A stretch of DNA of 64,000 nt from assembly GCA_943787175.1 (NCBI GenBank), contig CALSLK010000006.1:1-64000 (forward strand), read 5' to 3'. Origin of the DNA: an uncultured Alphaproteobacteria bacterium (GTDB taxonomy: Bacteria > Pseudomonadota > Alphaproteobacteria > SP197). Under the pieces are notes generated by a model that was given only the letters and a program-made list of their open reading frames with translations, ran no database searches and was not told the origin of the DNA. This document shows, one piece after another, positions 7,926-62,359 of this stretch. Position 1 is the stretch's first letter, and every line of letters begins with the position of its first letter. Both the position numbers and the translations under genes were made by a program.

Positions 7926-8897
7926 ATGGCCGGCATCATGACTCTCCAGAACATCATCATCGTGCTTGCCACGTTGGGTGCGTTCATCACGATCATCGCG
8001 ATTGCGATGCCCTTTCTGCAGACCGACCACTACGGCAGCCGACTGAAGTACCTGGCCAAGCGACGCGAGGAACTTCAGGCGCAACAGCGCCACAAGTTCG
8101 AACAACAACAGCAGCAGGCCAGCCTGAGGCGCCGGGAGACCCGGTCCCAGGGCATGATGACCCGGGTCCTGAACAAGCTGAATATGATGGAAAAGGCGTG
8201 GTCGCCGGAACTGCGCATCAAGATGCAGCAGGCCGGTATGCGCGGCCAGGGGCCGGCGATTGCCTATGTGTTCGCGCGCATGGTGTTGCCGCTGGTTCTG
8301 GCCTGTGTTGCCGCGCTGATCGTGTTTTCGTCCAAGGATATCGAGCCGGCTCTCAAGCTTCTGATCACTGTGGCCGCAGCGGGTCTTGGCTATCTGATCC
8401 CTGATATCATCGTCAAAAACACGGCCAAGAAACGCCAGGAAATGATGATCAAGGGTTTTCCCGATGCTCTGGATCTGGTCGTGATCTGTGTCGAGGCGGG
8501 CATTTCTCTGGAACAGGCATTTGTGCGCGTTGCACAGGAGATGGTCGACATCTCCCCTATCCTGGCTGAAGAGTTCTCCATCACGACGTCAGAGCTTGCC
8601 TATCTGGGTGATCGCCGTGCGGCGTTGGAAAACCTCGCCACCAGAACCGGTGCCGAACCGGTGAAAGCGCTGACGACTTCGCTGATCCAGTCGGAGAAGT
8701 ACGGGACCCCACTGAGCGTTGCCTTGCGCGTTCTCTCACGCGAAAACCGCGACGACCGGATGGCACGCGCCGAGCAGAAAGCCGGCGCCCTGCCTGCAGC
8801 ACTGACCGTGCCGATGATCCTGTTTTTCCTGCCGGTGCTGTTCATCGTGCTGATCGGCCCGGCCATCATCCAGGTGCTGCAGACCTTTCAGGAATAG
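7926..8897 (+). CDS. tadC: Tad pilus inner-membrane platform protein TadC
   Basis: TadC is the second GspF-type platform protein. I place the start at the ATG at 7926, preceded by AGGGAG (7915-7920), rather than at an earlier in-frame codon inside tadB. This gives 323 aa beginning MAGIMTLQNIIIV. An N-terminal membrane segment, a Gln-rich coiled stretch (HKFEQQQQQASLRRRE), the T2SSF domain with GFPDALDLVVICVEAGISLE, and C-terminal hydrophobic segments are visible. It is the last gene of the + strand tad run and converges on the TPR lipoprotein gene 27 bp away. Confidence 0.93.
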   Translation: MAGIMTLQNIIIVLATLGAFITIIAIAMPFLQTDHYGSRLKYLAKRREELQAQQRHKFEQQQQQASLRRRETRSQGMMTRVLNKLNMMEKAWSPELRIKMQQAGMRGQGPAIAYVFARMVLPLVLACVAALIVFSSKDIEPALKLLITVAAAGLGYLIPDIIVKNTAKKRQEMMIKGFPDALDLVVICVEAGISLEQAFVRVAQEMVDISPILAEEFSITTSELAYLGDRRAALENLATRTGAEPVKALTTSLIQSEKYGTPLSVALRVLSRENRDDRMARAEQKAGALPAALTVPMILFFLPVLFIVLIGPAIIQVLQTFQE

Positions 8898-41600: not shown

Positions 41601-42967
41601 GCCGCTACAAGCTCCTCGGCCAGATTAGTGAAACGCCGGCCCCAGGGCTCATCAAAGGGCTCCACGATGACATCGGTTGCCCTGCGCAACCTCTCGCAGG
41701 CAGCGTCATCGCCGGACAGGGCAACAAGGGATGGCAGAGCATCGAGCATGGCCTGGCGGCTGCGCGCCACCATCACGCCCGGCATGTCATACAGCGCATC
41801 AAAGTGCACGCTGGGCATGGCGATGCGCAGGTGCTCGGCCTCCTGGAGCTCATCTTCGGGCAGGAAGCACAGAACCGGATGTCCGAGACGGGCGGCTTCC
41901 ACAATGATCGTCGAAAGCGGAGAAACCAGCGCGTCGATATGGCAGAGCAGGTCACGGGTTTCACGGTAGTCCGGCAGGGACTTCTCGAGATTGCCCGCCT
42001 TGACCTGTTCGAGATAACCCCGCATCGAACGTTCCAGGCGAACATGCCTCCAGGGTTCATCGATGATCCGGTGCCCGTCCTGACCACCATTGCCCCACGG
42101 ATGCGGTCGATAGAGCAGAACCGTATCGGGCAGAGTGCCGGATTCGATCATGGCCTCGATTGCCTTGAGGTGACTGAACTCATCGGTTTCCTTGCTGGAT
42201 CCCGCATACAGCAGGATGCGTTTTGCAGGGTCGATATCGTAGGCAGCACAGAACGCCGCACGGTCGAGACGTGGCGGCTCGCGGTAGACTTCAAACTGCG
42301 CGGCACCGAACCGGCGGATACGATCAATCGGCATGTTCATGTAACGCAACGTGTGTTCCTCGGTCTGCTCGCCCCAGACGAGCAAAAGATCGGGATGGCC
42401 GACAACCGCCTGTTTGCTCGAGGGGTTGTCCCAGGAGTTCATGACCAGCACATGGGGCAACCCGCGGCGGCGGCATGTCTGCACGACATCGTTGATGAAG
42501 AGTCCGTTCAGAACCGTGGGATGCACGACGAGATCTGGCTGATGGCGATCCAGTAGTGTTTCCAGGGCACGGTTGGGATGCGCGTCAAGACGGTGGTACT
42601 GGAACCAGGTGAAGAGCTGGCGCAGACCGGGCAGGGCCAGGGTCTGATAGAGCAGACGCCCTTTCCAGGACTGGGCGTTGCGATAGATGTGGCGTACGGC
42701 ACGGAACTGCCGGCCCGGCCGCAGACGCAGGCGGTCCACGGTGAAGAGTTCGCTCCAGAGACGCGCCCGCTTGGGTTCGACATCCAGCAGTTCGTAATCG
42801 GCACCATGCAGGTCCAGCGTCTCCGGCTCCACCGGACCCATGCGCTGGTTCGAAGGATCCAAAAAGACGAACTCGACATCATGCCTGGCGGCCAGATCGG
42901 CAAACGCAGCACTCATCACGAAGTGACGCACGACCAGATCAGCATCGATGAACACCAGAACCTTCAC
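41597..42967 (-). CDS. GT-B surface-carbohydrate protein (CDP-glycerol transferase-like)
   Basis: The 456-aa protein begins VKVLVFIDADLVVRHFVMSA. The C-terminal half includes TVLLYRPHPWGNGGQD and DALVSPLSTIIVEAARLGHP, reminiscent of capsule/teichoic-type GT-B polymerases. GTG at 42967 overlaps the stop of the CMP-sugar synthetase gene (GTGA), which I prefer over a start at 42988. No substrate can be assigned, but the position suggests use of the CMP-nonulosonate made next door. Confidence 0.65.
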   Translation of the reverse strand: MKVLVFIDADLVVRHFVMSAAFADLAARHDVEFVFLDPSNQRMGPVEPETLDLHGADYELLDVEPKRARLWSELFTVDRLRLRPGRQFRAVRHIYRNAQSWKGRLLYQTLALPGLRQLFTWFQYHRLDAHPNRALETLLDRHQPDLVVHPTVLNGLFINDVVQTCRRRGLPHVLVMNSWDNPSSKQAVVGHPDLLLVWGEQTEEHTLRYMNMPIDRIRRFGAAQFEVYREPPRLDRAAFCAAYDIDPAKRILLYAGSSKETDEFSHLKAIEAMIESGTLPDTVLLYRPHPWGNGGQDGHRIIDEPWRHVRLERSMRGYLEQVKAGNLEKSLPDYRETRDLLCHIDALVSPLSTIIVEAARLGHPVLCFLPEDELQEAEHLRIAMPSVHFDALYDMPGVMVARSRQAMLDALPSLVALSGDDAACERLRRATDVIVEPFDEPWGRRFTNLAEELVAA

Positions 42968-43683
42968 GCGGTGTCCCTGCGCTCCCAATCCATGAGGAAT
43001 TCGACCAGTGCGATGTCGAACTCGGTATCAATGCTGATGAAATGGCCAGGTGTCACCAGACCGCGCGTACGCGCTCCCATGATCGTTTTCTGGTCCACCA
43101 GACAGGAGCGGGTGATGGCATAGGCAAGTCCGTTGCGATGGTAGACCGGCTTGAGCTGCTGGCGTGCGATGATGGCCGCGCCACCGGGATCGTTGAAGTC
43201 CAGCCGGTCCTCATCAATGGCAAGCTGCTTGAGCGGATGCGCCTTGCTGTCGGTTTCCGAAACCGTCCAGCAGGCATCCCAGTCGCCATCAACCAGAGCG
43301 GCGACCGTGTCGGCTACATGTTCGGCCCGGCGCAAGGGTGAGGTCGGCTGGAGCATCACGACGACATCGTAGGTGACGCCGTCATGGGCTTCGCTGGCGT
43401 GCAGGGCATGGTGCAACACGTCCCAGTCACCGATACGGTCGCCGGAGATGTCTTCAGGCCGGCGGAACGGTGCGGCAAGACCACTTTCTTCGGCCATGGC
43501 GGCGATCTCGTCGTGATCGGTCGACACCACGGCACGGTCGAGCCAGTCGAGTTCAGCACAGAGATGGCCGACCCGGGCGACCATGGGAACACCACCCACC
43601 GGTCGCAGGTTCTTGAGACGGATACCTTTGCTGCCTCCCCGCGCCGGGCACACAGCCAGAATGCGGCGACCGTCCCAGGTCAT
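42964..43683 (-). CDS. neuA: CMP-nonulosonate (acylneuraminate) cytidylyltransferase
   Basis: This enzyme activates a nonulosonic acid with CTP. The 239-aa protein has the signature CPARGGSKGIRLKNLRPVGG, then AVVSTDHDEIAAMAEESG and VVMLQPTSPLRRAEHV, all typical of NeuA/PseF/LegF enzymes. Which sugar is used (neuraminate, legionaminate, pseudaminate or Kdn) cannot be settled from the sequence. It is coupled by overlaps to both neighbours and partners with the NeuB fusion at 45178. Confidence 0.9.
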   Translation of the reverse strand: MTWDGRRILAVCPARGGSKGIRLKNLRPVGGVPMVARVGHLCAELDWLDRAVVSTDHDEIAAMAEESGLAAPFRRPEDISGDRIGDWDVLHHALHASEAHDGVTYDVVVMLQPTSPLRRAEHVADTVAALVDGDWDACWTVSETDSKAHPLKQLAIDEDRLDFNDPGGAAIIARQQLKPVYHRNGLAYAITRSCLVDQKTIMGARTRGLVTPGHFISIDTEFDIALVEFLMDWERRDTA

Positions 43684-44549
43684 GCCGCGACAGCCTCGAT
43701 GATGATGGTGTCGGTCGTGCCCTGAGCCTCAAGCGCAGCGCGGTAGGCAAGATCAGTGGTGCCGAACAGCTCGCGGAAACGCGCATTGCCGCCTGGTTTT
43801 CCCGCAGACAACCACTGGAGATGATTCTCGATGCCATATCGCTGATGCGGAATCGAAGTGCGTACAACAAAGCCACTGTGCTTGAGCACGCGTTCCAGGG
43901 ATGGCGCGGAGTAAACGAAGGGATGCTGCCGCTGGAAGTAGAATGCCTGATAGTCGGCGTTCTCGTAGAGCGTCAGCAGTGGGTCATGGAGGCACGGCAC
44001 CTCGATCAGGAGCGACCCGCCCTCGGCGAGCAGACTGCGGGCTTCAGCCAGGAACACATCGGGCTCGGGAATGTGCTCGAAAACATGGAACAGCATGACG
44101 AGGTCAAACCGCTCTCCGCCCGCACGTGCTTCCTCGATTCCGTCATACTGCGTCAGCCACGACAGGCGGTCCCGGTCCGGCCGGGTATTCTGGTCCGGTT
44201 CAATGGCGGCATACCGGCTTGCCGGAACCGCATTCTGAGCAAGTTCGAGAAACGCAGCATTGGCCGCACCGATTTCCAGCACTCCCCCACCGTCCGGGAT
44301 CAGGTGCTGCACCTTCTGCAGGCGCGCCTCGAGACCTCCGGAGTTCTTCGCATAGGCCTGAAGGCCCAGCTTTTCCGACCGGCGCTCATAGGCGGCATAG
44401 TCCATGACCGGCATAGGGTCGAGAACGGCGAAGTCGCCCTGCTCGTTGATGTAGACGTTGATTTGGGGGTCATCCTGAACACCCGAGCGCAACAGGGTGT
44501 AGGTATCCTGATCGAGCGGCCGGGTCAGGCGTGCAGGATCAAGAGTCAT
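43680..44549 (-). CDS. SAM-dependent methyltransferase (class I)
   Basis: The 289-aa protein has motif I VLEIGAANAAFLELAQNA and then DLVMLFHVFEHIPEPDVFLA and LLAEGGSLLIEVPCLHDP. The layout resembles sugar C-/O-methyltransferases (Methyltransf_23 type). It sits between the HAD phosphatase and the CMP-sugar synthetase and might methylate the nonulosonate or, more speculatively, the phosphoramidate group. Confidence 0.87.
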   Translation of the reverse strand: MTLDPARLTRPLDQDTYTLLRSGVQDDPQINVYINEQGDFAVLDPMPVMDYAAYERRSEKLGLQAYAKNSGGLEARLQKVQHLIPDGGGVLEIGAANAAFLELAQNAVPASRYAAIEPDQNTRPDRDRLSWLTQYDGIEEARAGGERFDLVMLFHVFEHIPEPDVFLAEARSLLAEGGSLLIEVPCLHDPLLTLYENADYQAFYFQRQHPFVYSAPSLERVLKHSGFVVRTSIPHQRYGIENHLQWLSAGKPGGNARFRELFGTTDLAYRAALEAQGTTDTIIIEAVAA

Positions 44550-45181
44550 GCCGCTTCCCTGGATGCCAGATCGAGGTGCCTACCCAGAAACGCGCAACCC
44601 GCGTCGGCCGGTTGTCCATAAAGCTCGCTCGCATCATCCGCCACGCGCAGGAAGGCACAATCGACCGCTGTGGCGGCCTCTGCGTCGCTGTCGCCATCTC
44701 CGATGACGGCAAGCTGGGAGGCCTCAAGGCCATGCTTCTGCATGATGGAACGCAGGGTGTCGGCCTTGGCGGACGGCGATCCGTTGATATCGGCGAAGTG
44801 CCGGTCAAAACCGGTTTCGCGCATCATCGCCAGGAGCGCGTCACGCGGCGTCCCAGAGCTCAGGTGCAAGGTCAGTCCCTGACCGCGTAACAGATCAAGC
44901 AACGCATCGGTCACGCCTTCCTTGAGAAGTGCGACAATCCGTTCGTGGCACAGTGTGCTGTAGCGCGCGATCAGCACATCGGCATCGCCGCTGGCGGGCA
45001 GGCGCGCGACAAGTTCGCCGAACACGCGGTAGCGGTCGCGCGTGGGGTCGGCGTCCAGCATGGAGGCAATGATCTCACCTGCGCCGTCGATGCCCTCGAC
45101 ACAGGCAAAGAAAGCGTCACGCTTGACGTCGTTTGAAGGCACCAGCGTGCCGTCCAGGTCAAAGACCAGGTGGCTGATCAT
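44546..45181 (-). CDS. HAD-family phosphatase
   Basis: The 211-aa HAD hydrolase has motif I FDLDGTLVPSNDVKRDAFF, motif II LSSGTPRDAL and motif III/IV GDGDSDAEAATAVDC. In a nonulosonate cluster such an enzyme may remove the 9-phosphate made when NeuB-type enzymes use a phosphorylated hexose (as in Kdn synthesis); this is inference. It overlaps the NeuB fusion gene and the methyltransferase by ATGA on both sides. Confidence 0.87.
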   Translation of the reverse strand: MISHLVFDLDGTLVPSNDVKRDAFFACVEGIDGAGEIIASMLDADPTRDRYRVFGELVARLPASGDADVLIARYSTLCHERIVALLKEGVTDALLDLLRGQGLTLHLSSGTPRDALLAMMRETGFDRHFADINGSPSAKADTLRSIMQKHGLEASQLAVIGDGDSDAEAATAVDCAFLRVADDASELYGQPADAGCAFLGRHLDLASREAA

Positions 45182-46737
45182 TCTGCCGCCTGGGCTCCAT
45201 CGGCAAGCTGGAAACGGCCCCAGTGATCGACCACGGTCTTGCGCTCCGAGCGTTCCATCGCCTGGATCTTCGGATCGCGATAGACCGAATCGTTGTTGTA
45301 ATGGGTCGTCGAGATCTCCTCGAAAACACAGCCGGTCTCGGTCCAGAAGCGGTGCCAGACGCCGGGCAGAACCAGCAGCGTGTCGCCGGGCTGGAGCAGG
45401 CGATGGCGACCGTCCAGTTCACTGTGAAGCTCGCCGCACAGAACATGGAAGGTCTCTTCCTTGCGCTTGTGGTAGTGCGAGGGATGACCCTGACCGGCAA
45501 GCTGGATCAGCACCTTCTTGCAGTATTCACGGTTGATGCAGTTGACGATGACCACGCCGGTCTCGCGGAATGCCCCGGGTCCGTAATGGTGCGAGTACTC
45601 CACCTCGAACTCGCTGCCCAGTTCGACCCGCGCCTTGTTGAGCAGACCCTTGACCTCGTGCACCGCCTGCTTGAGCACATGCACATCGGAACGTTCGGGC
45701 ATGGAGATGGCATCAAGCGCCAGGGTGGCATCGGCCTTGATCGCCTTGGTCGTGACGATCTCGTTGCTCCACTGTCCACTTTCCAGGCCACCTTCAGCAT
45801 AGGGGAAGGCAAAGTAGACATCATCGCGAGAAACCGCGTGGCCTGCTTCAAGATCATGCCGGGCAAACACACCGCGGCTCAATCCGGCAATCGCGACGGC
45901 TTCATCCTCACTGGGTGCCTGGCGTTCATCCAGGCCCAGCAGGGTCTGTGCCTTCTTCCAGGCCGTGATCCAGGCGTCGACCTCATCGGGATTGGAGGAA
46001 TAGGCGTTGAGCGTGATGGTGTCAGTCGGCACACCGACATGGCGCTCGAACATGCGCGCACCCTTGGCGAGTGCGAGACCCACCGGCATCGTGTCTGCCG
46101 GGTTCTCATGGGTCGACCAGCCGACCGTGCGACCGCCGAAGCGTTCGATCATCATGGCGATGTTGTTGAGATGGCACATGGAATCGGGTGTGGGATAGAC
46201 CGAGACGCAATGCATGAGCGCAAAGTCCGCACCACGATGACCCAGAAAGCTGACCAACGCGTCCATATCCGACTGCAAGAGGCCACCGGTCGAGGCAATC
46301 ACCGGACGGGCGGAGGCGGCAATCCGTTCCAGAAGCGGCCAGTCCTTGGCTGAGCAGCTCGCCACCTTGATGATGTCGAAACCCATCTCCTCGATCACGC
46401 CAACCGAGGCCTCGTCGAACGGAGTACAGGCCGCCATCATGCCCTGGGCACGCACCTCATCGAGCAATGCCTGGAACCCGTCTCGGTCCAGCCGGGTCGA
46501 AAGAAACCGCGGCACATGTTTGTTGTCGCTGGATTGCAGATGGCTGGGATGAATGAAGGTGTCGAGATCGCGGAACTGGAACTTGATGACCCCCCGAACA
46601 CCATGGCGGGCCACGACCGCACCATGCTCACGGATCACGCGTTTGCCGTGCTCGATGTCGCCCTGATGGTTATTGGCGAGGTCGAGAACAAACAGGTCCT
46701 TGAAATCAAAGGGTTTTTCGTCATGCGGAGGAGTCAT
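45178..46737 (-). CDS. neuB: Nonulosonate synthase (NeuB family) fused to a cupin domain
   Basis: Residues about 12-260 are a NeuB TIM barrel (FVLDLANNHQGDIEHGKRVI, KVASCSAKDWPLLERIAASA, GRTVGWSTHENPADTMPVGL), which condenses PEP with a hexose or hexosamine. Residues about 280-345 resemble the SAF antifreeze-like domain (SRGVFARHDLEAGHAVSRDD). Residues about 395-505 are a cupin (GHPSHYHKRKEETFHVLCGE, LPGVWHRFWTETGCVFEEIS) that resembles D-lyxose-isomerase-type cupins. Plain NeuB is about 340-350 aa; this one is 519. The cupin may isomerise the precursor sugar or act as a lectin-like lid. It starts the nonulosonate sub-operon. Confidence 0.88.
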   Translation of the reverse strand: MTPPHDEKPFDFKDLFVLDLANNHQGDIEHGKRVIREHGAVVARHGVRGVIKFQFRDLDTFIHPSHLQSSDNKHVPRFLSTRLDRDGFQALLDEVRAQGMMAACTPFDEASVGVIEEMGFDIIKVASCSAKDWPLLERIAASARPVIASTGGLLQSDMDALVSFLGHRGADFALMHCVSVYPTPDSMCHLNNIAMMIERFGGRTVGWSTHENPADTMPVGLALAKGARMFERHVGVPTDTITLNAYSSNPDEVDAWITAWKKAQTLLGLDERQAPSEDEAVAIAGLSRGVFARHDLEAGHAVSRDDVYFAFPYAEGGLESGQWSNEIVTTKAIKADATLALDAISMPERSDVHVLKQAVHEVKGLLNKARVELGSEFEVEYSHHYGPGAFRETGVVIVNCINREYCKKVLIQLAGQGHPSHYHKRKEETFHVLCGELHSELDGRHRLLQPGDTLLVLPGVWHRFWTETGCVFEEISTTHYNNDSVYRDPKIQAMERSERKTVVDHWGRFQLADGAQAAE

Positions 46738-46772: not shown

Positions 46773-47852
46773 TCAGTCAAGAGCAGCCATACTGTAACCG
46801 GCTGAGCGGTCAATGCGTACGGTCCGGCCTTGCGCCTGGGAACGATGCGCGGCAGCAACCACCAGCATGGTGTCGAGACCACGTTCCAGCGATATGGGGC
46901 TGGCAGAGCCGGTTTTCGATGCCAGGGCATCTTCAATGTGACGCAGTTCGCGGATGAAGTCGTCCGGACGGGTCTTCGTGACCACCGTTGCCTCGCCACC
47001 ATCGGGGGCATAGGCATCCTTGCCGGGCTCGAAACCGCAACGCCATTCCCCACCGCTGTCGCTGCCCTGGGCACGCGCCCATTTGCGCGGCGGCTTGGTC
47101 ACAACGTCCTGTACGACCCGCCCGCAGAAGCCGGTCTGCGTTGTCAGGTTGAGCAGGCAGAGCCGGTCATAATCGGCGCCACCATCGGTGACGTAGTCCA
47201 GCCTGGCCTGGACTTCGACAACGCCACCATGACCGGCAGCATGCGCGAAGTGTTGCCACAGATTGGCGGCGTGGGAATGCTCGCCGCTGGCGCCGCCACC
47301 GCGCTTCCAGAAGCCCAGATAGGTATCGGTCGGGCCATCAAGCCAGGGGTGTGCTGCAAAGATGCCGCCCCAGTGCTCGCGGAACTCGACATCGAGTGTT
47401 TCGAGCGTGCCGAAGGCGCCGGCAGCCAGGGCATCGGTCATCAGGCTGCTGGCCTCGCCCACGACATGGTCATAGCCGGTAAAGGCAACCACGCCGGCAG
47501 CCTCTGCCTCGGCGTGAAGCTCGGCCAGACCTTCCAGATCGGGCGTCGAAAGCGGCTTTTCGATCAGCAGCGCGGCAGGATTCTCCGCGATGGCTTCACG
47601 CGCCAGGCCGACATGGTGGTCGGGCGGCGTGCCGATCATGATCAGGTCATAACCACCCACGGGCGCATCACCGGCAACGTGCTGGCCGATGGCTTCGTCC
47701 CATGCGCCATAACGTGCGGGATAAATCTCCTCGCGCATGCGCTTGAGCGCCGCCGGGTCGATATCGACGACATCGACCTGCCAGTCGAGACGCCGCGAGG
47801 CATTCGCCAGATGGTTGCCGATCGAACCGGCACCGAAAATCTTCACCTTCAC
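46773..47852 (-). CDS. Gfo/Idh/MocA-family oxidoreductase
   Basis: The Rossmann motif is IFGAGSIGNHLANASRRL, the family motif EKPL is at LLIEKPLSTPDL, and a GGxxxxHSHAANLWQHF-like segment follows, where the expected H is present. The 359-aa enzyme probably oxidises or reduces a sugar hydroxyl. It starts with GTG at 47852 and lies between the CysC-like kinase and the NeuB fusion, so it could supply either branch. Confidence 0.85.
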   Translation of the reverse strand: MKVKIFGAGSIGNHLANASRRLDWQVDVVDIDPAALKRMREEIYPARYGAWDEAIGQHVAGDAPVGGYDLIMIGTPPDHHVGLAREAIAENPAALLIEKPLSTPDLEGLAELHAEAEAAGVVAFTGYDHVVGEASSLMTDALAAGAFGTLETLDVEFREHWGGIFAAHPWLDGPTDTYLGFWKRGGGASGEHSHAANLWQHFAHAAGHGGVVEVQARLDYVTDGGADYDRLCLLNLTTQTGFCGRVVQDVVTKPPRKWARAQGSDSGGEWRCGFEPGKDAYAPDGGEATVVTKTRPDDFIRELRHIEDALASKTGSASPISLERGLDTMLVVAAAHRSQAQGRTVRIDRSAGYSMAALD

Positions 47853-47855
47853 GCG

Positions 47856-48383
47856 TCAAACTCCTTCTTGATCATGGAGCACACCCGAATCACCGAGAAT
47901 ACGGCGGGCAAGATCGCCCGGGCTGCTTTTCATGGCGTCTTCGCCCAGCACCAGATCCGGCGCGGGCGGTGTGGGAAACGGCAGGTCACACCCTACCACC
48001 AGTGGCATTTCGCCACTGTCATGGGCGGCATAGATCCCCTTGGGATCGCGTTGTTTCAGAACCTCCATGGGAAGATCCAGAAAGACCTCGTAGTAAGACG
48101 AAAATGTCTCGCGGTTCCAGGCCTGCCATTCGGGAAAGATCGACAGAACCGCCGCGACGGCATTGATGCCCTGCTCGTCCAGAACCCGGCACAGATGGGA
48201 GATGCGATGGGCGTTGCGCGCCCTGCCCTCGACATCGTGCCCCAGGCGGTCGCCCCAGACGTCCCGCAGAATGTCGCCGTCAAGGAACACCGTGGCGGGG
48301 TCCTGCTCGCACCATTGCTGCCAGACCTCGCGCCCGATGGTCGTCTTGCCGGCACCCGACAGGCCGATGAGCCAGATGATCAC
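47856..48383 (-). CDS. CysC-like kinase, probable cytidine diphosphoramidate kinase (Cj1415-like)
   Basis: The 175-aa P-loop kinase starts MIIWLIGLSGAGKTTIGREV. It has DGDILRDVWGDRLGHDVEGR, where APS kinases have DGDNxR and a D-R-x-x-N helix. On its own it would be annotated as adenylylsulfate kinase. However, no sulfurylase or PAPS reductase is nearby, and glutamine kinase, cytidylyltransferase and amidohydrolase homologues are upstream. In Campylobacter jejuni the CysC-like Cj1415 3'-phosphorylates cytidine diphosphoramidate. I infer that function from motif and order. Confidence 0.78.
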   Translation of the reverse strand: MIIWLIGLSGAGKTTIGREVWQQWCEQDPATVFLDGDILRDVWGDRLGHDVEGRARNAHRISHLCRVLDEQGINAVAAVLSIFPEWQAWNRETFSSYYEVFLDLPMEVLKQRDPKGIYAAHDSGEMPLVVGCDLPFPTPPAPDLVLGEDAMKSSPGDLARRILGDSGVLHDQEGV

Positions 48384-48408
48384 CGCTGTTCTCCCGGTCC
48401 ATACACCG

Positions 48409-50208
48409 TCATTTGGGATAGTCCCGCGTCATGGCGATGATGTTGTCGTTGGAGAAATGGCGTTCCATGCCGTCGTAGTGATCGCGCACCATCTTGCGGA
48501 ACCGCGCCGTGGTTTCCGGTTCGGAATCGAGCAGATTCTCGCTCATGTCCTCTTCCTTGGTCGCTGGATCCCGGCGGAACAGCCATTCACCGACCGGCGC
48601 GTCAAAATCCCCCTCACCGGCAAGGTCATCGAGCGGGAAGCGCAGGGCGTACATGCGGTCATCCTCGCGCAGAACGATTTCACCGGTCTCCCGGAAGAGG
48701 GATTCCGATCGCCCGACCGTGCGATAGCCGCCTTCGGGTTCAATCGCGTTGCGTCCGGAAAGATGCGGCGGCGGCTCCAATCCGGCCATCCCTGCAATGG
48801 TTGGATAAAGATCGATGGGCGGCTCAACGAAACCGTCACAGGTGCCCGACTTCACACCGGGGCCGGTGAGCAGGAATGGAATACGGGTCAGGCTGCGGGT
48901 CAGCAGCGGCGAGCCCTTCATGTATTCCCGTCCATGATCAGCCAGCACCATGACATCGGTTGTCTTGTCGAGGCCTTCGCGTTCCAGATAGCCAAAGAGC
49001 TTGCCCAGGATGAAGTCGAGATTGCGCACCATGACGCGCTCCATCTCGCGCAGGTCGGCGACACGCTCGCGGCTGTCACGATGCAGCTTGAAGGCGCCAT
49101 AAAGGCTTCGGCTGTCCCCCCAGCGTGACTCACCCGAATTGAGTTCGGAAAAATAGGTCGGCAGGGCAAAGGGGGGGTGCGGATCGATGATGTGCAGGAA
49201 ACAGAAGGTCGGTGAATCCTTGTGCGTCTCGATGAACTCCATCGCCCGGTTGACCACCGTGTCGGTCGTGTCTGCCAGGCTCTGGTTGTGAAAATGAAAG
49301 CGCTCGAACCCGCGGTAATGACCATAGGGCGGCACGTACCGACGCCCCGTCGAATAGGCAAACGTTCGGTAACCTGCTTCCTGCAGAAACTCCGCCAGAG
49401 TCGGAATCTGGGGCGGGATGGTGCGCTGACACCGGTCATGGGTGAAGACACCGTGCTGGATGGGATAAAGCCCCGTCATCATCGTGGCGAGCGAGGGCAT
49501 CGTGTATTCGCTCTGGCTGTAGGCGTTGGTGCACAGCTGGCCGTTTGCGAAGTAGCGGTCGATCTGGGGCGTGAACGATTCCTCTGGTGACGCGCCCGAA
49601 AGGCACCCCACGGTTTCGGGCACCATGGAATCAAGTACCAGAACAATCACGTTGGAGCGTTTTTCCCGGTCGGCCAGAACCCGTTCCGGCACCGGCTGGG
49701 ACAGATACAACCGCTCGCCCAACCAGCTCAGACGCAGGGTCGAAACCTTTGCGGGGTCCCCGATGGGCACTCGAACGTTGTTCCAGTTCTCGGCAATCAG
49801 CGGCCCCTTGATCTGGGTGACGGGCTTGCCATCCAGCGTCACCGTGAGATCGGCATAGGGAAGATTGATGCGCGCCTGGGCAAATGCAGTCGTGAAGGCA
49901 ACGGTATCAGGCGGAAACGGACCGACGCTGATATCGACATCCCTCTGCACCTCGATGGCAGCACGGGTATCGCGCGCACGGGTGATGCCCATGGCACCGG
50001 TCGCATCGGGGACCGCAACATAACGCAGGTCGTGGGCAAGTTCGAAGTCGTCACCATCCCAGATATAGGGATACTGGCTCTTGTTCTTGTCGGCCTTGCG
50101 CTTGTCGGCATGCATGGCACGTGAAGCATTGGAAAGCGCCTTCCACAGGGCAGGCGGAATCACCGCGTCACGGCAGAATTCCTTGAATCGTGAAGCCCAG
50201 AGAGACAT
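48409..50208 (-). CDS. Sulfatase-fold protein with Thr at the nucleophile position; candidate phosphoramidate or phospho-transferase
   Basis: Residues about 185-500 are an alkaline-phosphatase/sulfatase fold: VIVLVLDSMVPETVGCLSG (metal Asp193), SEYTMPSLATMMTGLYP, FLHIIDPHPPF and VLADHGREYMKGS. Formylglycine sulfatases have C/S-x-P-x-R; here the site reads T236-M-P-S-L, as in Thr-nucleophile phosphoethanolamine or phosphoglycerol transferases. The first 180 residues are a separate, probably beta-rich domain. No signal peptide or membrane segment is seen, so it may be cytoplasmic. The size of 599 aa and the position among phosphoramidate genes make it a candidate transferase; this is inference. 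Confidence 0.72.
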   Translation of the reverse strand: MSLWASRFKEFCRDAVIPPALWKALSNASRAMHADKRKADKNKSQYPYIWDGDDFELAHDLRYVAVPDATGAMGITRARDTRAAIEVQRDVDISVGPFPPDTVAFTTAFAQARINLPYADLTVTLDGKPVTQIKGPLIAENWNNVRVPIGDPAKVSTLRLSWLGERLYLSQPVPERVLADREKRSNVIVLVLDSMVPETVGCLSGASPEESFTPQIDRYFANGQLCTNAYSQSEYTMPSLATMMTGLYPIQHGVFTHDRCQRTIPPQIPTLAEFLQEAGYRTFAYSTGRRYVPPYGHYRGFERFHFHNQSLADTTDTVVNRAMEFIETHKDSPTFCFLHIIDPHPPFALPTYFSELNSGESRWGDSRSLYGAFKLHRDSRERVADLREMERVMVRNLDFILGKLFGYLEREGLDKTTDVMVLADHGREYMKGSPLLTRSLTRIPFLLTGPGVKSGTCDGFVEPPIDLYPTIAGMAGLEPPPHLSGRNAIEPEGGYRTVGRSESLFRETGEIVLREDDRMYALRFPLDDLAGEGDFDAPVGEWLFRRDPATKEEDMSENLLDSEPETTARFRKMVRDHYDGMERHFSNDNIIAMTRDYPK

Positions 50209-50212
50209 GGCG

Positions 50213-51451
50213 TTAGTTGCTTTCCTTCACCCCGGCCAGCCCGTCGGCAGCCAGCCATTGATGTACGGTTTCGGCGATCAGACGGTTCGCATTGGGACTG
50301 GTATGCGGCCCCAATGCGCCCTCCTTATAGACCTCCATGGCATCGTGCTGTTGCAGCAGGACATCACCAAGGTCGAGAACAGGCACAACCTCGCCCAGTT
50401 TGTGGACAACCTCCCGGCTGACATCCCTGCCTGATGCCCGGTCCGCGAGGTCACGGGGCTGAGGAAGGATGACAAGGCGCGGCGTTGCGCCGTGACGTCT
50501 GGCCGTCGCCTCGAAACGGACCACCAGCCGGCGCAGCAGTTCCCCTGCTTCCGGCTCGGCAAAGAGACGCCGCTGATGCAGGTGGTTTTCATCGAGCACA
50601 ACCGAAAACGCCCTGCGGCGCGCAGCTTCGGGTTCCCCGGTCATCGCGCCGCAAAGCAGTTCGGAAAGAATGCGTCCATGACGCCGCCACCGGCGCAGGA
50701 TGCTGAGGCTCGCGGGAAACCGGATCAGGTCTGCCAGGAACTTCTCGCGGTAGAACCGGTCGTTCTGGCGCACAGCGTCACGCCAGCGCGAGGTCTCGGC
50801 GATTTCGTGTGCCTCCTGGACCGCACACGGGACCAGCTTGAGGTCATCCCCTTCAATCTGGAACATCGGCTTGAACGCCAGCGTGTTGCCGTACTCATAG
50901 AAGTGCTTCCAGAACGAGTGAACCCTGGCAATGGTTTCGGGCACCACAGCCATGATCACGACAGAGCCTTCGTGGTCAGGGGCCTGACGTTCATAACGCA
51001 GGAGCGCCTGGTCCAGACCGTAATTGCCGACACCGAAGTTGCGCACGTTGGTCCCGCACAGACCGGAGAGCGCGTGTGGCCAGGTCTCTCCGTCACCGAC
51101 CAGACGGCAGAAGGCGTAGGAATCACCAAAGACCGCAACACTGCTGGGCTTGCCCTCGAAACCCGGGTTGGTACGCGCACCATCGTCCGCGATGGAAAAG
51201 GCTGCATCGCCCTCAGGCGAGACATCGAGGCCCGACGTACCGGGCTTGCGTGCCCAGCCCAGCTCCGCATCGAAGCTCACGCGGGCGTATTTCTCGATCA
51301 CGTCCGTGGCGATCTCCGGCCTGGCGTCACGGGGCACGATGAGCCAGGGAAAGTTGCGTCGGAAGATCATGACCACCGTCCACGCAGCCGCTTCAACGGC
51401 CGCCAGCACGGCACCGGCGGTCACGAGAACAGGGATCAATCCAAATGACAT
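50213..51451 (-). CDS. Membrane-anchored SGNH/GDSL-like hydrolase
   Basis: An N-terminal membrane segment (LIPVLVTAGAVLAAVEAAAW) is followed by an SGNH-type domain with VFGDSYAFCRLVGDGETW (block I Ser) and FGVGNYGLDQALLRY. A late block with DLGDVLLQQHD and GPHTSPNANRLIAETV carries the expected C-terminal Asp/His region. SGNH proteins of this type often add or remove acyl groups on envelope glycans. I chose ATG at 51451, after the upstream stop, over GTG at 51502. The length is about 412 aa. Confidence 0.7.
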   Translation of the reverse strand: MSFGLIPVLVTAGAVLAAVEAAAWTVVMIFRRNFPWLIVPRDARPEIATDVIEKYARVSFDAELGWARKPGTSGLDVSPEGDAAFSIADDGARTNPGFEGKPSSVAVFGDSYAFCRLVGDGETWPHALSGLCGTNVRNFGVGNYGLDQALLRYERQAPDHEGSVVIMAVVPETIARVHSFWKHFYEYGNTLAFKPMFQIEGDDLKLVPCAVQEAHEIAETSRWRDAVRQNDRFYREKFLADLIRFPASLSILRRWRRHGRILSELLCGAMTGEPEAARRRAFSVVLDENHLHQRRLFAEPEAGELLRRLVVRFEATARRHGATPRLVILPQPRDLADRASGRDVSREVVHKLGEVVPVLDLGDVLLQQHDAMEVYKEGALGPHTSPNANRLIAETVHQWLAADGLAGVKESN

Positions 51452-51471
51452 GGTTTGCGCCAAGTCTCGAT

Positions 51472-52269
51472 CTATCGCCCGGCCAATGCCTTGATACCGC
51501 ACAGATCGCCAAACGTTCCGGCCTCGACCAGGGCGGTGTAACGCGCAAGGTCCTCATCAGTATCGACTTCGATCCAGCCGCCATCGATGGGGACGGCATG
51601 GAGCTTGCCACCATGATCGATGTGGGCCTGCAGCAGGTCTGTCATGTAACAGTTGGCGACCGGCTTGCCCTGCACATCGCCGCCGGGTTGGGCTGCACGA
51701 TCGAGGAGGTCGAGCAGTTCGCCGCACGCCTTGGCTGAGAACCGCATGAGGCCGATGTACTGCGCCTCGATCTCGTCCAGGCTCGGCACCTTGCGTCCGA
51801 TATCGATGATGTTGCCGCCACCATCAAGGCGCAGGCTCTCTGCATCCGAAAGCGGATCGTCGCTGCGCAGAATCCAGAGCTTCAGCCATTCACGGTCCAC
51901 GATCACACCGGCCTCACTGTCATCGGCCAGCAGTGCCTCGAGGATCTTCTCTTCATAGATGATGTCGCCATAGGCCAGGATGACATCTTCTCACCGGATT
52001 CCAGAACCGGCCGCGCGCACAGCATGGAAGCGACCATGTTGGTCCGCCGCCCAGTCGGGATTGTCCCAGAGCGTGAGGCCCAGGCCGTCGAGCTGCTCGC
52101 CGAGATAACCGCGCACCAGGTGGATATCATCAAGGCCCGCCCCGCGGAGGACCGATAGCTGGAGGTCCAGCAACCGGGATCCCGCAAAGGGCGTCAGGCA
52201 TTTGGGCGTCTGGTCGCTGTGAACGCCAAGGCGCGAACCCCGGCCGGCAGCAACAATCAGAACCTTCAT
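51472..52269 (-). CDS. Nucleotidyltransferase, probable CTP:phosphoglutamine cytidylyltransferase (Cj1416-like), two compensating frameshifts
   Basis: The N-terminus has the sugar-nucleotidyltransferase signature VLIVAAGRGSRLG with PKCLTPFAG. The middle (about 51985-52060) is out of frame; the neighbouring frame gives MVASMLCARPVLESGE, after which the original frame resumes with VDREWLKLWILRSDDPLSDA and GGWIEVDTDEDLARY. By reconstruction it is about 265 aa. It overlaps the amidohydrolase gene upstream by ATGA. The Cj1416 enzyme joins CMP from CTP to L-glutamine phosphate; I assign that role from synteny and fold. Confidence 0.75.
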
Positions 52270-52977
52270 TCGCTCGTTTCCTTCCAGAATGCGCCCTCGG
52301 CCAGAAGCCGTCGGAACAGAGTGTCTTCAGAACCCCTTGCGTTCCCGGCGCGCGCCGTTCGGGGTGCCAGTGGAGTGCAACGATGGGCGCATCGCGATGC
52401 ACCAGCGCCTCCACCAGACCATCCCCGGTGGCCGAAACCGCGCAAACCTGGAGGCCGTCGCCAACCGCGTCCGGCGCCACACCCAGATTGTGGAACGAGT
52501 TGACCGTCGCCGTATCCGCTTCCGGCCAGTTCGCATGAGCGGCGGCGACAGGGTGACGGCATGGTCGCGCCCGACATGGCTGCCCTTGTCGGCAATCTCG
52601 TGCACCCCACCGCCGAAATGGAGGTTGACCACCTGCAGTCCCACGGCATGTGGCAAAGACCGGCACGCCGCGCTCGCCGGCCCAGGTGATCATGGCGTGT
52701 TCGGTGGCATCGCGTTCAGGCGAAACGGTCATCATCGGCAGCATCGGTGCGCGGGGAATGACATCGTTCCCGCCCGTCAGGATCACGACCGCAGGGGCCA
52801 AGCGACATCGAGCCAGGCGCCGATGTCCCTGCACCAAGATTGGGGACGGGCAGCGGCATGCCGCCCCAGTGCATGCGATCTGTGACCCACCAGTCATGCG
52901 CCAGGGCATCGCGCGGCTCGTGGTATCCCACGGCCTGCTGGACCCGCATGGAGACCGCGAAACAGCGGCTTGCTCAT
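52266..52977 (-). CDS. Class I glutamine amidotransferase-like hydrolase, probable gamma-glutamyl-CDP-amidate hydrolase (Cj1417-like), frameshifted
   Basis: Segments in different frames assemble one protein of about 235 aa: [39 protein letters not shown], a nucleophile elbow CRG-MQ (one extra base near 52645), [39 protein letters not shown] and the catalytic HWHPE motif. It ends KETSE at 52266. This is the peptidase C26/PuuD fold. Cj1417 of C. jejuni cleaves CDP-L-glutamine to glutamate and cytidine diphosphoramidate. The start MSKPLF at 52977 overlaps the kinase stop by ATGA. Confidence 0.75.
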
Positions 52978-55289
52978 GCGATCGACCGCAGGGTGCGGGC
53001 GGCACAGTCGAGTTCGATCACCGAGCCACGGCCCAGTTCCGCGAACAGGCGCTCGCCACACCCGATCGCGGCGGGCAGATCCGAACTCCGCGCATCGGAT
53101 CGCGATGTGCGAGTTCGCGCCGCCGAACTTGGTCACCAGGCCCGCGATGCCGTGCGACAGGATCCAGTCGTAGCCGGGGTCGGCCGCCTCGATCAGGACG
53201 ATGGCGCCATCCAGCGCATCGGCACCGTCACGTTCCAGGTCGACGACTGCGGGCCGTGACCGCCTCCTGCGTCGTGAAGGTCGGCTTCCCCAGGGGCATG
53301 CGCACAACGCCGATGTCGGCCACGCCGGTCACGACCTCCGGCAGGCGCAGCGTCAGGGTCACCGCGTGCTGTTCGCGCTGCTGCGCCACGATCTCGCGCA
53401 GCTGCTTCGGGGGCCTGGTCTCGATCCGTTCAGAACCGTTCCGATGTCGAGATACGAGAGGTCGTCCCTGACTGAGTCCTACGCCCTCGCCCCAGCCCGC
53501 CAGCGCTTCGAGCGCATCGGAGATGTTGCGGGTGAAGTCGAACTTGATCTGCTCGCGTCCCTGCGACGCTCTGGCCGATGTAATCCATCAGTCCGGCCGG
53601 ATCGGTTTCCAGGCCATGTTCGTCCAACAGGGTTTGCAGCGCCGAGGCTTCATCGTCCGTCCAGGCAAAGGGTTCGACCGGCGCAGGTTCAGCCATGCTG
53701 CCCTTGAGGTAAAGATCGGGCGCGGCGTCGTATCGCGCAGAGAGAATGTCATAGGTGCCGGGGCGAAGATGACCACAGAAGCCCAGGAAGGCATCCATGG
53801 TCGTGGTGCCCTTCGAGACGCCATGCATGCCGTCCACAACATCGGCAGCAACCGTGTGCACGCTGGTCATCAGGCGACCGGCCGTAGAGGGATCGACGGC
53901 ACCACGGGCGACCAGCGACTTGACGAACGCCATGGCGATAAAGGCGTGGCGCGCGACAATCGAAAAGGGATGGGTGCCAAATTTCCTGCAATTTTCCAGA
54001 AGCAGGTCAGCCCGCTTCAGATCGGAACCGGCTTGCGCAAGGCCCGCATCCAACTGGTTTGCCTGATCCGAAAGGTGCTGGAGTTCACCATGCCGGGTCG
54101 CGAGACAGACGTTGGTATGGCCACGCAGGCGAGCTTCAAGATCGCCCATGTCTGCAACCCCAAGCCGTTTTGCCTTTTCGGCAAACCCAAAGTCCATGCT
54201 GGAGAGCGCAATCTCGAATTCGAACTTGTCGTGGAGATCACGTTGGTCACGCAGCATGGCCAGCTGCTGGGTGACAATCGCGTCGGCAACACTGTCCGCC
54301 AAGCCATCAGGCAACAGCGAGTTGAGACTGAGGCGCACATCGATGTAGGGCCTGCCGCCAAGATCAATCAGAAGCGGTTCGGGCGCGAACCGGCGATAAC
54401 CCATATCGAAACGAGCCTCGCACCAGGTCCGGTCCGTGATGAGGCGTCGGTAGAGCGACAGGGCAAGTGGGCGCGGAGTCTGGCCGATCATCTCAGCCGG
54501 ATTCCAGTCCGCCATATCGCTGAGCACCGGTGCATCGCCGACAATTTCGTCGTGAGGGGCGGCGCGTTCGGTCAATCCGTTGCGGATATGATTCAGACTG
54601 GTCGCGACATCAGCATCAGGCGCAGCCTGCCAACGACCATGCATGGTGAGCGGGCGCACCTGGAGGATCGTGATGTCATCACCAGCAATGCAGAACTCGA
54701 TATCAAGCAGCGTGTTGCCACAGGTCGTCTGGAGCGTCTGAACAATCGCGATCAGGCGCAGGAACCTTGGTGAATGGAGACCTTCAACAGAGTCATGATG
54801 GACCAGCAGGGCCTTGCTTTCAGCTCCGCTGGTCACCGTGTCCGTGCGGCCCGAGAAGTCATCGTAGTTGATAACAAAGTAGGGCCCGCCAACAGTGAGT
54901 TCCCGGGTCACCACCACGCCGGAGATTTCGACATTGCTGATCATGGGCTGGACCAGGATCTGGTTGCTGTCGGGTCCGTTGCCGTAGCTTGCCATCACGG
55001 TTTCAACCGCGCGGGTGATGGCGTCTGCCGTCAGCTCGACCGAGATCACGCTATCGAACACACCGGCCATCGACGAGGCATGCGTGTCCTCAGACTGACC
55101 GCTGGAGCGAACCACCAGAAGCCCATCGCCAAACTTATCCATGATCTGGCGCACCAACCCATCGGCATCCCGTTTCCAGTCAGCCACCGAGAACAGGATC
55201 TGGGCACAGAAGCTGGCATCGGCCACCAGCGGGGCAAGGCGCGCCAGGGTCTCGCCCTTGGTGCCAAATTCAATGGTCGCCGCGTTCAT
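52974..55289 (-). CDS. PEP-synthase-like protein, probable L-glutamine kinase (Cj1418-like), frameshifted in the C-terminal third
   Basis: Residues 1-220 hold a PPDK/PEP-synthase ATP-binding domain ([40 protein letters not shown]). A long helical middle continues in frame to about residue 585. The frame then changes around 53520, 53440 and 53280-53250, after which [20 protein letters not shown] and [19 protein letters not shown] give the mobile phosphohistidine domain. The His codon is 53107-53109, about residue 728. A further shift gives [20 protein letters not shown] and TGA at 52974. The length of about 772 aa is close to that of the C. jejuni enzyme, which transfers the beta-phosphate of ATP to the glutamine amide. 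Assignment rests on order and architecture. Confidence 0.78.
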
Positions 55290-57203
55290 GCGCTTTCCAC
55301 GCGTGCATCCGAAAGCAGACGGAAGGAGTGGTTGTCACGCGACAGCGCCTCGTGGCTACCCGAAGCCGTGATGGCCCCATCTTCCAGTACGAAGATCTTG
55401 TCACAGTCGGCCAGCGAGCCCATCCGATGGGTGATGGTCACGATGGTGCGTTCACCACCCAGCCGGCTGATGGTGCCGCGAATGTCACGTTCCGTCGGGA
55501 CATCGAGCGCACTGGTCGCTTCATCGAAAACCAACACCTGTGGATCACCGTAGAGTGCCCGCGCGATGGCAGCCCGCTGGCGCTGTCCGCCCGAAAGCCT
55601 ACCGCCGGCATCACCCAGAGAGGTTTCCAAACCGGCAGGCCAAGTCTTTACGACATCGGCCAGTTCCGCGAGTTCCAGACATTGCCAGATCCTGTCGTTG
55701 TCGATGGCGTCATCATCGAGCCCAAAGGCAACATTGCGGCGGAGGGAGTCATCAATGATGAAGGGTTCCTGGGGCACGTAACCAATGACCGAGAGCCACG
55801 CATTGCGCATGCCACCGGTCAGAGGCTTTTCGTCCAGACGAACAACGCCGCCAGTTGGGATAAGCAATCCAAGCAGAATATCGAGAAGCGTACTCTTGCC
55901 CGCGCCCGAAGCACCGACAAAGGCGTAACTCCTACCGCGCTCAAGCGTGAGGTTGATGTTCTTAAGTTGCACCCTGTCGGCGTCGGCGTAACGGAATTCG
56001 ACGCCTTCAAAGGTAAGCGCATGCCAGGCCAGGTTTCCGCCATGCGGCGTCTCGGTGGCGGCATGAGTCGTGGCCCAACTCTTGATCCAGCTAAGCAGCT
56101 CACTGTAACCGACATAAAACGGCTCCAGCTTCACCAACCGGTTGATCGTGCCACTTATCTGGGAAACGGCAGGCAAGACACGGACCAGCACGAGAAGAAT
56201 GAAGGTGAGTTGCGCCACGATGATCTCGGCCGAAAGCTGGGTCGTGACCAGGGTCATGGCGAGCGAAAGCATAGCGATCTGGCCAATCAGCATGGTGATG
56301 GCAGGGATCGTCTTGTTCACCACATTGAGCTTCATGCGGGCAAAATTGGCACGCCGCCAGCTGGTTGCGAACCGGTCCAGAAAGTAACGCTCGCGTCTGG
56401 AGGCCTTCAAAACCTTGGCGCCGCTGAGGGATTCCACGGCCTGCTGAACGCTCTTGATGCTCTGGTGACGCTGATCGGCCGAGTATCGCGCCGAGAGCGG
56501 ATTGAGGGTCAGCAAGGATCAGCGCGGCCAGGACGCCAAACCCGATCAGGACGCCGATGGTCAGCCAGGATGAGGCCGCGATCACGGCTGTCAGGCCGAT
56601 GAGCAGAATGAAGACGCCATAACTGAGGTCAAGCACGCTGGCGAAGAGGGCCTGACCGACAGAGGCGGCATCGACTGAAATGCGTTGCGCCAGATGTGCG
56701 CCGTTCTGCGTGCGTAGCCAGGCATAGGGGCCGAACAGACACCCATGAATCAGCTCGTCCACCAGCCGGTTGGCGAAGTGTGCGCTGAACCGCTCCACGG
56801 CAATGAAGATGATGGTCCGGAACAGGAAAGCCACGGCAAGACTGGCAATCACCAGTCCTCCCATCAGGAAGATCGTGTCGCCTTCCGGCTTCAGGCCCAT
56901 CCAACGCCAGGGCCTCGTTGACGATGGGGTAGCGATCGGGCGCGTCCGGTTCCAGCAGGAGGCCAACAAACGGCACCGCGGTCGAAAGTGCTGCCAGCTC
57001 CACGGCAGGCTGACAGGAACGAGGCAAGGAAGATGATGACTCGTCTCCATCTTCTCGCGCGGCAGCAACAGGCGCCAGCCCGAGACGGTCATGGCCGCGG
57101 CAGCTCGCACGCTGCCGGTCACACCCGATAGCGCAGCGCGGCTGTCGCCACCGTGAGGCGGCGTGGTGCCTGCGCCTTGCCGTTCTGCGGGTCGTCGCTC
57201 ACA
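55286..57203 (-). CDS. ABC transporter, fused membrane and ATPase domains, frameshifted
   Basis: The ATPase domain is intact: Walker A VGASGAGKSTLLDILLG, signature LSGGQRQRAAIARALYG, Walker B VLVFDEATSALDVP, His switch ITHRMGSLADCD. The membrane domain is split: SLAVAFLFRTIIFIAVERFS and LLIGLTAVIAASSWLTIGVL in one frame, QIAMLSLAMTLVTTQL in another, with indels near 57120, 57010, 56900 and 56515. The start is probably GTG at 57203. The reconstructed half-transporter (about 638 aa) resembles lipid-linked glycan/lipid exporters. It overlaps the glutamine kinase start by ATGA, suggesting a shared function. Confidence 0.78.
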
Positions 57204-61365: not shown

Positions 61366-61635
61366 ATCAAGATGATGCCAACGGTGCTGGCGCCCTCGCC
61401 TAGACTCCAGCGTACGCGGTCACCAAGGGTGATCCCGACCAAGGCCCGCTGACGCGGCTGATCGATACGGCCAAACCTGATCTGGCCGCTGTGATTACCC
61501 TGATCGGACACGATCAAACCCAGCAAGATATGGTCCTTACCGGCATGATCCCAACCGCGGTTTGTGATGGCGGATGGCGTGCATGAACAGGGCGTTCGAG
61601 GCCATCCAGTGAGGGAGGCCAACCAGGCTCGTCAT
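61347..61635 (-). CDS. Small protein, possible truncated GNAT acetyltransferase, frameshifted
   Basis: ATG at 61635 overlaps the formyltransferase stop (ATGA) and begins MTSLVGLPHWMASNALFMHA. After an indel near 61575 the frame continues with KDHILLGLIVSDQGNHSGQI, RFGRIDQPRQRALVGITLGD and ends IILIWGEER at 61347. The middle resembles the beta4-beta5 region of GNAT acetyltransferases acting on amino sugars (PseH-like), but the protein, about 95 aa, is too short for a full domain. Low certainty. Confidence 0.4.
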
Positions 61636-62359
61636 GCTCGCACCGCCTCGATCAGCGGCGTGTAACGCCCTGTACTCAGCCGCCGCTCAATCTCTTCGAT
61701 CACATCATCGCCCAGAGGCGTTCCCCAGCCACCATCACCCTGTGCCGTGAAGTCCGCCTCACCGAGCCTACCCTGCTGGAGCTCGAGAACGGCACTGGCC
61801 AGAAGGTCAAAGCCATGCCGGTACACCGCACAGCGCAAATCGTGGTAGCAGGTCACCTCATTGAGCGGAACATCCTCGATCATCAGAACCGGCCCTTCGT
61901 CCACGCCCTCAGTCATGCGATGGAGGGTATTGGCGACCGGCTCATCATTCATAACAGCGTGCTCAACCGCACAAGCCCCCACGATAGTCGGGTAGACGGC
62001 CAGGGTGGCAGTTTAGAACGCCCATCGGAGCAGCATGCAGCAACACCGTGTCGACAATGCGCGGCGTACCGGCATTGACCAGCAAATCAAGCTCCAGCGA
62101 CCTCACCAATTCCAGGCAGTCCGGCACCGTTGTGATCTGAGACGTAAAACCTGGGAGGTCTCTCAGGCAGAGGAAGAACTGGCAGCCTTCCTCCGGTGCG
62201 TTGTTCATGAACACGCAAATCGCGAGCTTTGATAGTAGCGGGATCAACCAGTACCGCGTCGATCGCCACACCCCGTTCCAGCATAGCCTGCACAATGCGC
62301 CCAGAAAGGATGCCATCGACTGTCGCCAACGCCCCGATCTTGAGCATGTTCCCGTTCAT
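61632..62359 (-). CDS. Formyltransferase-family protein, frameshifted
   Basis: The N-terminus has IGALATVDGILSGRIVQAML. A second frame (about 62240-61985) gives LDLLVNAGTPRIVDTVLLHA and the motif LNCHPGRLPDYRG, which matches the catalytic region of formyltransferases (H-x-x-x-x-P-x-Y-R-G). The third piece is VEHAVMNDEPVANTLHRMTE with VDEGPVLMIEDVPL. The total is about 242 aa. In a glycan locus an N-formyltransferase for an amino sugar is likely. It is coupled by ATGA overlaps at both ends. Confidence 0.75.

Follow-up and report, generated by a model that had tools for sequence, protein, structure and literature searches.

A putative phosphoramidate-donor cassette in an alphaproteobacterial glycan locus, with relatives in many microbial phyla

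The stretch of DNA analysed here, hereafter the window, comprises 64,000 nucleotides from an uncultured marine alphaproteobacterium (GCA_943787175.1, contig CALSLK010000006.1, positions 1 to 64,000). On its minus strand, at 47856-55289, lies an operon-like run of six genes specifying, in order, a phosphoenolpyruvate (PEP)-synthase-like protein, a C26-type hydrolase, a nucleotidyltransferase, an SGNH-fold protein, an alkaline-phosphatase/sulfatase-superfamily protein and a CysC-like kinase (Table 1). In Campylobacter jejuni the O-methyl phosphoramidate donor pathway is transcribed in the order Cj1418-Cj1417-Cj1416-Cj1415. The same four enzyme families occur in the window in that order. Excerpts of PMC3907429 place cj1415 downstream of cj1416. 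Unlike in C. jejuni, the SGNH and alkaline-phosphatase-superfamily genes are inserted before the last kinase. The C. jejuni system also has methyltransferases and the O-methyl phosphoramidate transferases Cj1421/Cj1422; in the window, a methyltransferase-like gene is present at 43680-44549. The original prediction, made from the letters alone, had picked out these four genes as a phosphoramidate-donor pathway, and all are present on the minus strand, with two genes (50213-51502 and 48409-50208) ahead of the CysC-like kinase. It had also described the first three as coupled by ATGA. Such a four-base overlap does join the hydrolase and cytidylyltransferase genes (52266-52269), whereas in the window damage prevents the junction between first enzyme and hydrolase from being read. 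A further ATGA overlap links the ABC transporter gene to the first enzyme (55286-55289). Two genomes of the same genus, G004 (locus L063) and G005 (locus L064), share this gene order and have uninterrupted frames for all four enzymes; in L064 the open reading frames (ORFs) specify 774, 239, 264 and 175 amino acids, and those of the first enzyme and hydrolase overlap if the longest start is chosen.

Table 1. Features of the cassette and its neighbourhood in the window; enzyme roles are those predicted by analogy with C. jejuni
Feature	Position	Strand	Remarks
Glutamine-kinase-like gene (Cj1418 role)	52983-55289	-	broken here; open N-terminal part 53430-55289
Gamma-glutamyl-CDP-amidate hydrolase-like gene (Cj1417 role)	52266-53017	-	broken into shifted frames
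Phosphoglutamine-type cytidylyltransferase gene (Cj1416 role)	51472-52269	-	stop at 51991-51993
Membrane-anchored SGNH-fold protein, 429 amino acids	50213-51502	-	candidate tailoring or transfer enzyme
Alkaline-phosphatase/sulfatase-superfamily protein, Thr at nucleophile position	48409-50208	-	candidate phosphoramidate transferase
CysC-like kinase, cytidine diphosphoramidate kinase role (Cj1415)	47856-48383	-	open frame
Gfo/Idh/MocA oxidoreductase	46773-47852	-	Pfam GFO_IDH_MocA 38.7 bits; next gene of the run; same position in L064
Nonulosonate-type block	42964-46737	-	NeuB-cupin, HAD-like, methyltransferase-like and CMP-sugar-synthetase-like genes
NeuB-cupin protein	45178-46737	-	NeuB 128.4 bits, Cupin_2 44.1 bits
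CMP-sugar-synthetase-like gene	42964-43683	-	CTP_transf_3 56.6 bits
Methyltransferase-like gene	43680-44549	-	label from inspecting the translation
ABC transporter protein	55286-56515	-	ABC_tran 110.5 bits; directly upstream of the first enzyme

The first enzyme belongs to the family of NF004508/PRK05849, a model which is itself titled 'hypothetical protein' and which we take to cover Cj1418. In the window its gene lies in four pieces: a single open frame (53430-55289) holds the match to about the first 577 residues, with further pieces at 53246-53572, 53080-53472 and 52983-53090. The open N-terminal piece scores 547.8 bits over residues 3-577, above the cut-off of 501, versus 37.7 bits for the next-best model, PEP synthase; the intact L064 homologue scores 796.5 bits versus 52.4 for the next. 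The ATP-binding domain is recognised as Pfam PPDK_N (49.4 bits), and the phosphohistidine domain (PEP-utilizers, 29.9 bits) is found in a separate piece, 52897-53328. The catalytic His731 is invariant in all 14 aligned homologues, and the phosphohistidine segment is present in that window piece. Among solved structures the family profile matched PEP synthases best (79 bits), and a phmmer search of the PDB with the window piece gave no match. Judged from these profiles, the protein has a dikinase-type fold but forms a family separate from the PEP synthases.

The nucleotidyltransferase gene is split in the window; its first piece matches NTP_transf_3 (39.7 bits) and its second has no Pfam match. 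A family profile built from 30 sequences has as its top PDB match the CTP:phosphocholine cytidylyltransferase 1jyk (95.2 bits). R13, K23 and D101 are invariant in all 30 aligned proteins (of 71 listed) and resemble the R, K and D that the excerpts of PMC12275187 describe as critical for this cytidylyltransferase family. By analogy with Cj1416, the cassette enzyme would act on phosphoglutamine.

The longest hydrolase piece in the window (52133-53017) has as its best NCBIfam match NF045546, the model for gamma-glutamyl-CDP-amidate hydrolase (45.6 bits), and the protein matches Pfam Peptidase_C26 (64.9 bits); its CRG and HWHPE motifs are kept, across shifted frames. At E <= 1e-15, 73 of the 74 cassette hydrolases match NF045546, six match the next-best model and two the PuuD model. 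In all 74, Cys116 is invariant, and His208 and Glu210 are nearly so. In a tree with C26 paralogues from related genomes (two of 30 C26 loci were dropped, and the window copy was too broken to enter), the 28 paralogues lie on one side of a branch with 100/100 support and the 74 cassette rows on the other.

The window kinase scores 149.9 bits against NF004041, above the cut-off of 127, and 107.3 bits against the apsK model TIGR00455, below its cut-off of 138.7; NF004041 is matched by 60 of 61 cassette kinases at E <= 1e-30. In the kinase tree the 27 alphaproteobacterial CysC domains (three of 30 loci near contig ends having been dropped) form a single clade with 100/99 support, outside which all 67 cassette kinases fall. 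The kinase has a counterpart in the 3'-phosphoadenosine 5'-phosphosulfate (PAPS) pathway, being a relative of adenosine 5'-phosphosulfate kinase that would make a 3'-phospho donor like PAPS; unlike that enzyme it lies outside the CysC clade, and its donor would, by analogy, be a cytidine phosphoramidate.

One could suppose that these proteins are housekeeping PEP synthase, PuuD and CysC paralogues gathered by chance in a glycan island, and the public annotation does use housekeeping names: 'PEP-utilizing enzyme', 'gamma-glutamyl-gamma-aminobutyrate hydrolase family', 'phosphocholine cytidylyltransferase family' and 'adenylyl-sulfate kinase', all four in one annotation and the first three, similarly, in two more. 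We give this hardly any credence and rejected it on the model scores and on the kinase and hydrolase trees, in which the cassette proteins are set apart; none of the three groupings with central metabolism against which the original prediction had been set was seen. Moreover, the window genome has its own C26 protein (C6:108965-109558) and its own CysC domain (contig C2) elsewhere, and the four-gene linkage recurs across phyla.

This linkage was investigated by scanning named genomes with a 14-sequence profile of the first enzyme, which gave at least 590 pattern stretches, of which tblastn confirmed at least 570 as relatives. The 99 loci examined comprise the best 80 of these, 20 loci from other genomes and the window, minus the repeats L065 and L074. 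Partners were counted as profile matches in six-frame ORFs, because simple gene calling misplaces genes in loci of high G+C content. In 59 of the loci, at least 6 kb of sequence is available to either side. Taking each of these loci as a whole, 57 contain the hydrolase, 57 the cytidylyltransferase, 48 the kinase and 47 all three; when matches must be on the same strand and no more than 3 kb away, the counts become 57, 51 and 41, respectively. As controls, 20 stretches of 20 kb, not selected for being glycan loci, were drawn from outside the cassette region of 12 carrier genomes; with the same profiles, none of the four families was found in them or in positions 1-36000 of the window. The co-location is therefore not due to chance.

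The 47 full loci are spread over many bacterial phyla and include one nanoarchaeal metagenome-assembled genome (MAG). By record titles the best 80 loci represent about 18 phylum-level groups, mostly as MAGs, among them Omnitrophota, Acidobacteriota, Bacteroidota, Thermodesulfobacteriota, Bacillota, one Nomurabacteria MAG and two archaeal MAGs. Full cassettes are also present in the named isolates Thalassobaculum fulvum (L090), Rubricella aquisinus (L115), Methyloversatilis universalis (L096) and Methylotenera oryzisoli (L129), none of which is known to be a pathogen. Closer to the window the distribution is patchy: the first-enzyme family is above cut-off in 17 of 385 sampled genomes of the class and 10 of 299 of the phylum (the window genome being counted in both), in two of nine other genomes of the genus, with a contig-edge piece in one more, and in none of six other genomes of the taxonomic family. 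Fifteen plasmid records carry a first-enzyme homologue, 14 of them over at least 80% of its length. Patchiness and plasmids would fit a horizontally moving module for surface variation. A scan of viral contigs for first-enzyme relatives gave 17 pattern stretches, none of which was confirmed. The single match in the phage collection is MT837632.1, an unannotated 9.5 kb faecal 'Bacteriophage sp.' record with a first-enzyme homologue (97% of the query, 34% identity); perhaps it is a misfiled bacterial contig. No Campylobacter sequence was among the best 80 loci, the plasmid and phage matches, the viral scan or the solved structures found.

From the families, their order and their co-occurrence we propose the following pathway, in which the reactions are those of the C. 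jejuni enzymes. The PRK05849-type dikinase would phosphorylate the amide nitrogen of glutamine with ATP by way of a phosphohistidine. The cytidylyltransferase would then join the N-phosphoglutamine to cytidine monophosphate from cytidine triphosphate (CTP), and the class-I amidotransferase-like hydrolase would remove glutamate to leave cytidine diphosphate (CDP)-phosphoramidate, whose 3' hydroxyl the CysC-like kinase would phosphorylate, yielding a PAPS-like donor. Homology and the conserved four-family cassette together make a donor pathway well supported at the level of sequence, and we consider it likely that the operon serves both to produce an activated phosphoramidate (P-NH2) donor and to decorate a surface glycan with it.

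Several points weigh against this proposal. The hydrolase misses the curated NF045546 cut-off of 250, with 45.6 bits for the window piece and 76.3 for the intact L064 protein; since these scores are so far below it, NCBI's own rule would not name the protein gamma-glutamyl-CDP-amidate hydrolase. The apsK model is also matched by 41 of the 61 cassette kinases at E <= 1e-30, and two of the 67 in the tree, L099 and L103 (the branch of one being very long), group on the CysC side when the tree is rooted at its midpoint. Phosphocholine, phosphosugars and phosphoglycerate are other substrates of this cytidylyltransferase family, according to the excerpts of PMC12275187. In some loci, for example L105 and L091, the first enzyme was seen but neither the hydrolase nor the cytidylyltransferase. 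The likeness to Cj1415-Cj1418 comes by way of family models and not of direct alignment, transfer to a glycan is read from the gene neighbourhood, and the first three enzyme genes of the window carry frameshifts and stops at about 51.9-53.6 kb. Perhaps, then, the four diverged enzymes act on another amide or acid and make a different CDP-activated headgroup in place of P-NH2, as the several substrates of the cytidylyltransferase family, the low hydrolase score and an identity of 29-44% between the first enzyme and 12 homologues outside the genus would allow. We regard this as quite improbable, given that all four families for exactly these reactions stand together in 47 of the 59 loci and that the hydrolases keep their catalytic Cys and, nearly always, the His and Glu. 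A gamma-glutamyl hydrolase step would, besides, make sense if a glutamine-derived group were carried.

The broken frames raise a second alternative, compatible with the others, namely that the locus has decayed and that the cell, with real frameshifts, makes no donor. Several breaks are packed into about 1.7 kb, and the alignment with L063 is richest in gap columns at 52.5-53.0 kb. The breaks (51500-53600), however, coincide with a change-over in identity to G004, from 99.5-100% at 43.5-52 kb to about 81-87% from 53.5 kb on, which points to recombination or to chimerism in the assembly; such a switch is what one would expect of a strain chimera or an error in the consensus. Fragmentation also affects a CysC domain and a PPDK in this assembly, and the relatives' enzyme genes are open, including those of L063, where the SGNH gene is split. 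Decay thus seems unlikely to us, and an artefact of assembly or strain mixing the more likely cause.

As to the acceptor of the proposed donor, glycosyltransferases, NeuB, an epimerase and a CMP-transferase surround the cassette in the window, and frequent neighbour clusters at other loci include sugar aminotransferases and glycosyltransferases. The pathway might nevertheless be real and feed a small molecule or some other acceptor. On the Cupriavidus taiwanensis plasmid NZ_LT984809.1 (L178) a first-enzyme homologue lies near a thiamine-diphosphate-dependent enzyme and a histidinol-phosphate transaminase, with no cassette partner or glycan gene listed nearby in an incomplete gene table, and possibly belongs to a small-molecule pathway. 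In view of the glycan genes we hold such an acceptor to be improbable for the window, and a surface glycan, as suggested by the neighbouring genes, remains the reading we prefer.

The transfer step itself could be supplied by either of the two genes inserted before the kinase. The 48409-50208 protein matches Pfam Sulfatase (121.4 bits). True sulfatases carry the motif C/S-x-P-x-R, in which Cys or Ser is converted to formylglycine. The protein lacks this mark of a true sulfatase, the nucleophile position being Thr, and neither Cys nor Ser, in six of six aligned members. T236, D193, D424, H425 and G426 are invariant in these six (of eight found), in an alignment that is loose (17-26% identity) and takes two of its members from one genus. 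The homologue adjoins the cytidylyltransferase in L068 and L107 and is one small ORF away in L050. We tentatively regard this Thr-type protein as the most likely transferase, which would move the phosphoramidate to a sugar; the SGNH protein may be a cap or acyl tailoring enzyme. No sulfotransferase-like gene, another candidate transferase seen near some cassettes, was among the 20 stretches of the window scanned with Pfam, the rest being unscanned. Near two cassettes are genes similar to those for a CDP-alcohol phosphatidyltransferase (L130:16366-17142) and a CDP-glycerol glycerophosphotransferase (L176:10945-12027), which are further candidates because these families use CDP donors.

A small helical protein (about 190 amino acids) and a formyltransferase-fold protein (about 240), sometimes fused, lie near 26 of 62 full cassettes (for example L127:8637-9986 and L098:8699-10011), a count that leaves out the near-duplicates L072, L077, L089 and L102, which belong to the 99 loci and not to the 59 well-flanked ones. 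This pair could conceivably N-formylate something linked to the phosphoramidate. The formyltransferase and SGNH folds were recognised by structure search, and a shared fold shows no function. Beside this pair, the alternative modules are a methyltransferase next to the first enzyme and an SGNH protein with or without the Thr-type protein; they hardly mix, by raw counts that ignore ancestry. It is possible, if doubtful as a whole, that phosphoramidate decoration is a general microbial surface chemistry in which one donor cassette is shared across phyla and combined with alternative tailoring modules, the Thr-type/SGNH module of the window supplying the transfer by way of a threonine-phosphoramidate intermediate.

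The pathway itself is already known from C. jejuni. According to excerpts of PMC3907429, 13 of 30 Campylobacter strains have orthologues of cj1416-1418, and phosphoramidate without the O-methyl group occurs in the lipopolysaccharide of Xanthomonas campestris and Shewanella, so that a P-N group on a surface glycan outside Campylobacter is known there as a structure and not as genes. One review, from 2022, describes the glutamine kinase as C. jejuni-specific (PMC9561416), and another, from 2019, states that the modification had so far been identified only in Campylobacter (PMC6429109), both in the passages available. Borgs, the extrachromosomal elements of methane-oxidizing archaea, have genes labelled as O-methyl phosphoramidate-related, including a CTP:phosphoglutamine cytidylyltransferase (2025, PMC12660748, in excerpt); these are related pathway labels, structure-based and from a different host. 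In the open literature, which leaves most subscription journals outside, we saw no other paper on such breadth, and we make no claim to be the first to describe it.

Should the cassette have this function in other organisms too, P-N bonds would be common on the surfaces of free-living microbes, and a different role would fall to many genes now named 'PEP-utilizing enzyme', 'gamma-glutamyl-gamma-aminobutyrate hydrolase family' and 'adenylyl-sulfate kinase'. The interest of the system lies in its breadth, its uninformative public names, its named isolate carriers and a short list of candidates for the transfer step. Since named isolates carry full cassettes, the idea is directly testable and the transferase can be sought by gene context.

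Among the flanking genes, the ABC transporter gene is the same upstream neighbour in L063 and L064. Within the 42964-46737 block the HAD and methyltransferase labels come from inspection of the translations and not from a profile scan; the fusion of NeuB and cupin near the CMP-sugar-synthetase-like gene, in the same gene run, perhaps indicates an unusual nonulosonic acid route. Scanning the window for Rfam families and tRNA genes gave no match. An acidobacterial first-enzyme homologue stands with a CysC-like kinase at L105:9986-12911 and in the near-copy L102, the hydrolase and cytidylyltransferase not being found in the locus. A formyltransferase-like gene at 61632-62316 is split over two frames and has an open homologue at L063:1360-2097. 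Finally, Tad-pilus-type genes (secretin, ATPase and inner-membrane proteins) were recognised at 1803-8897 by inspection of the translations.

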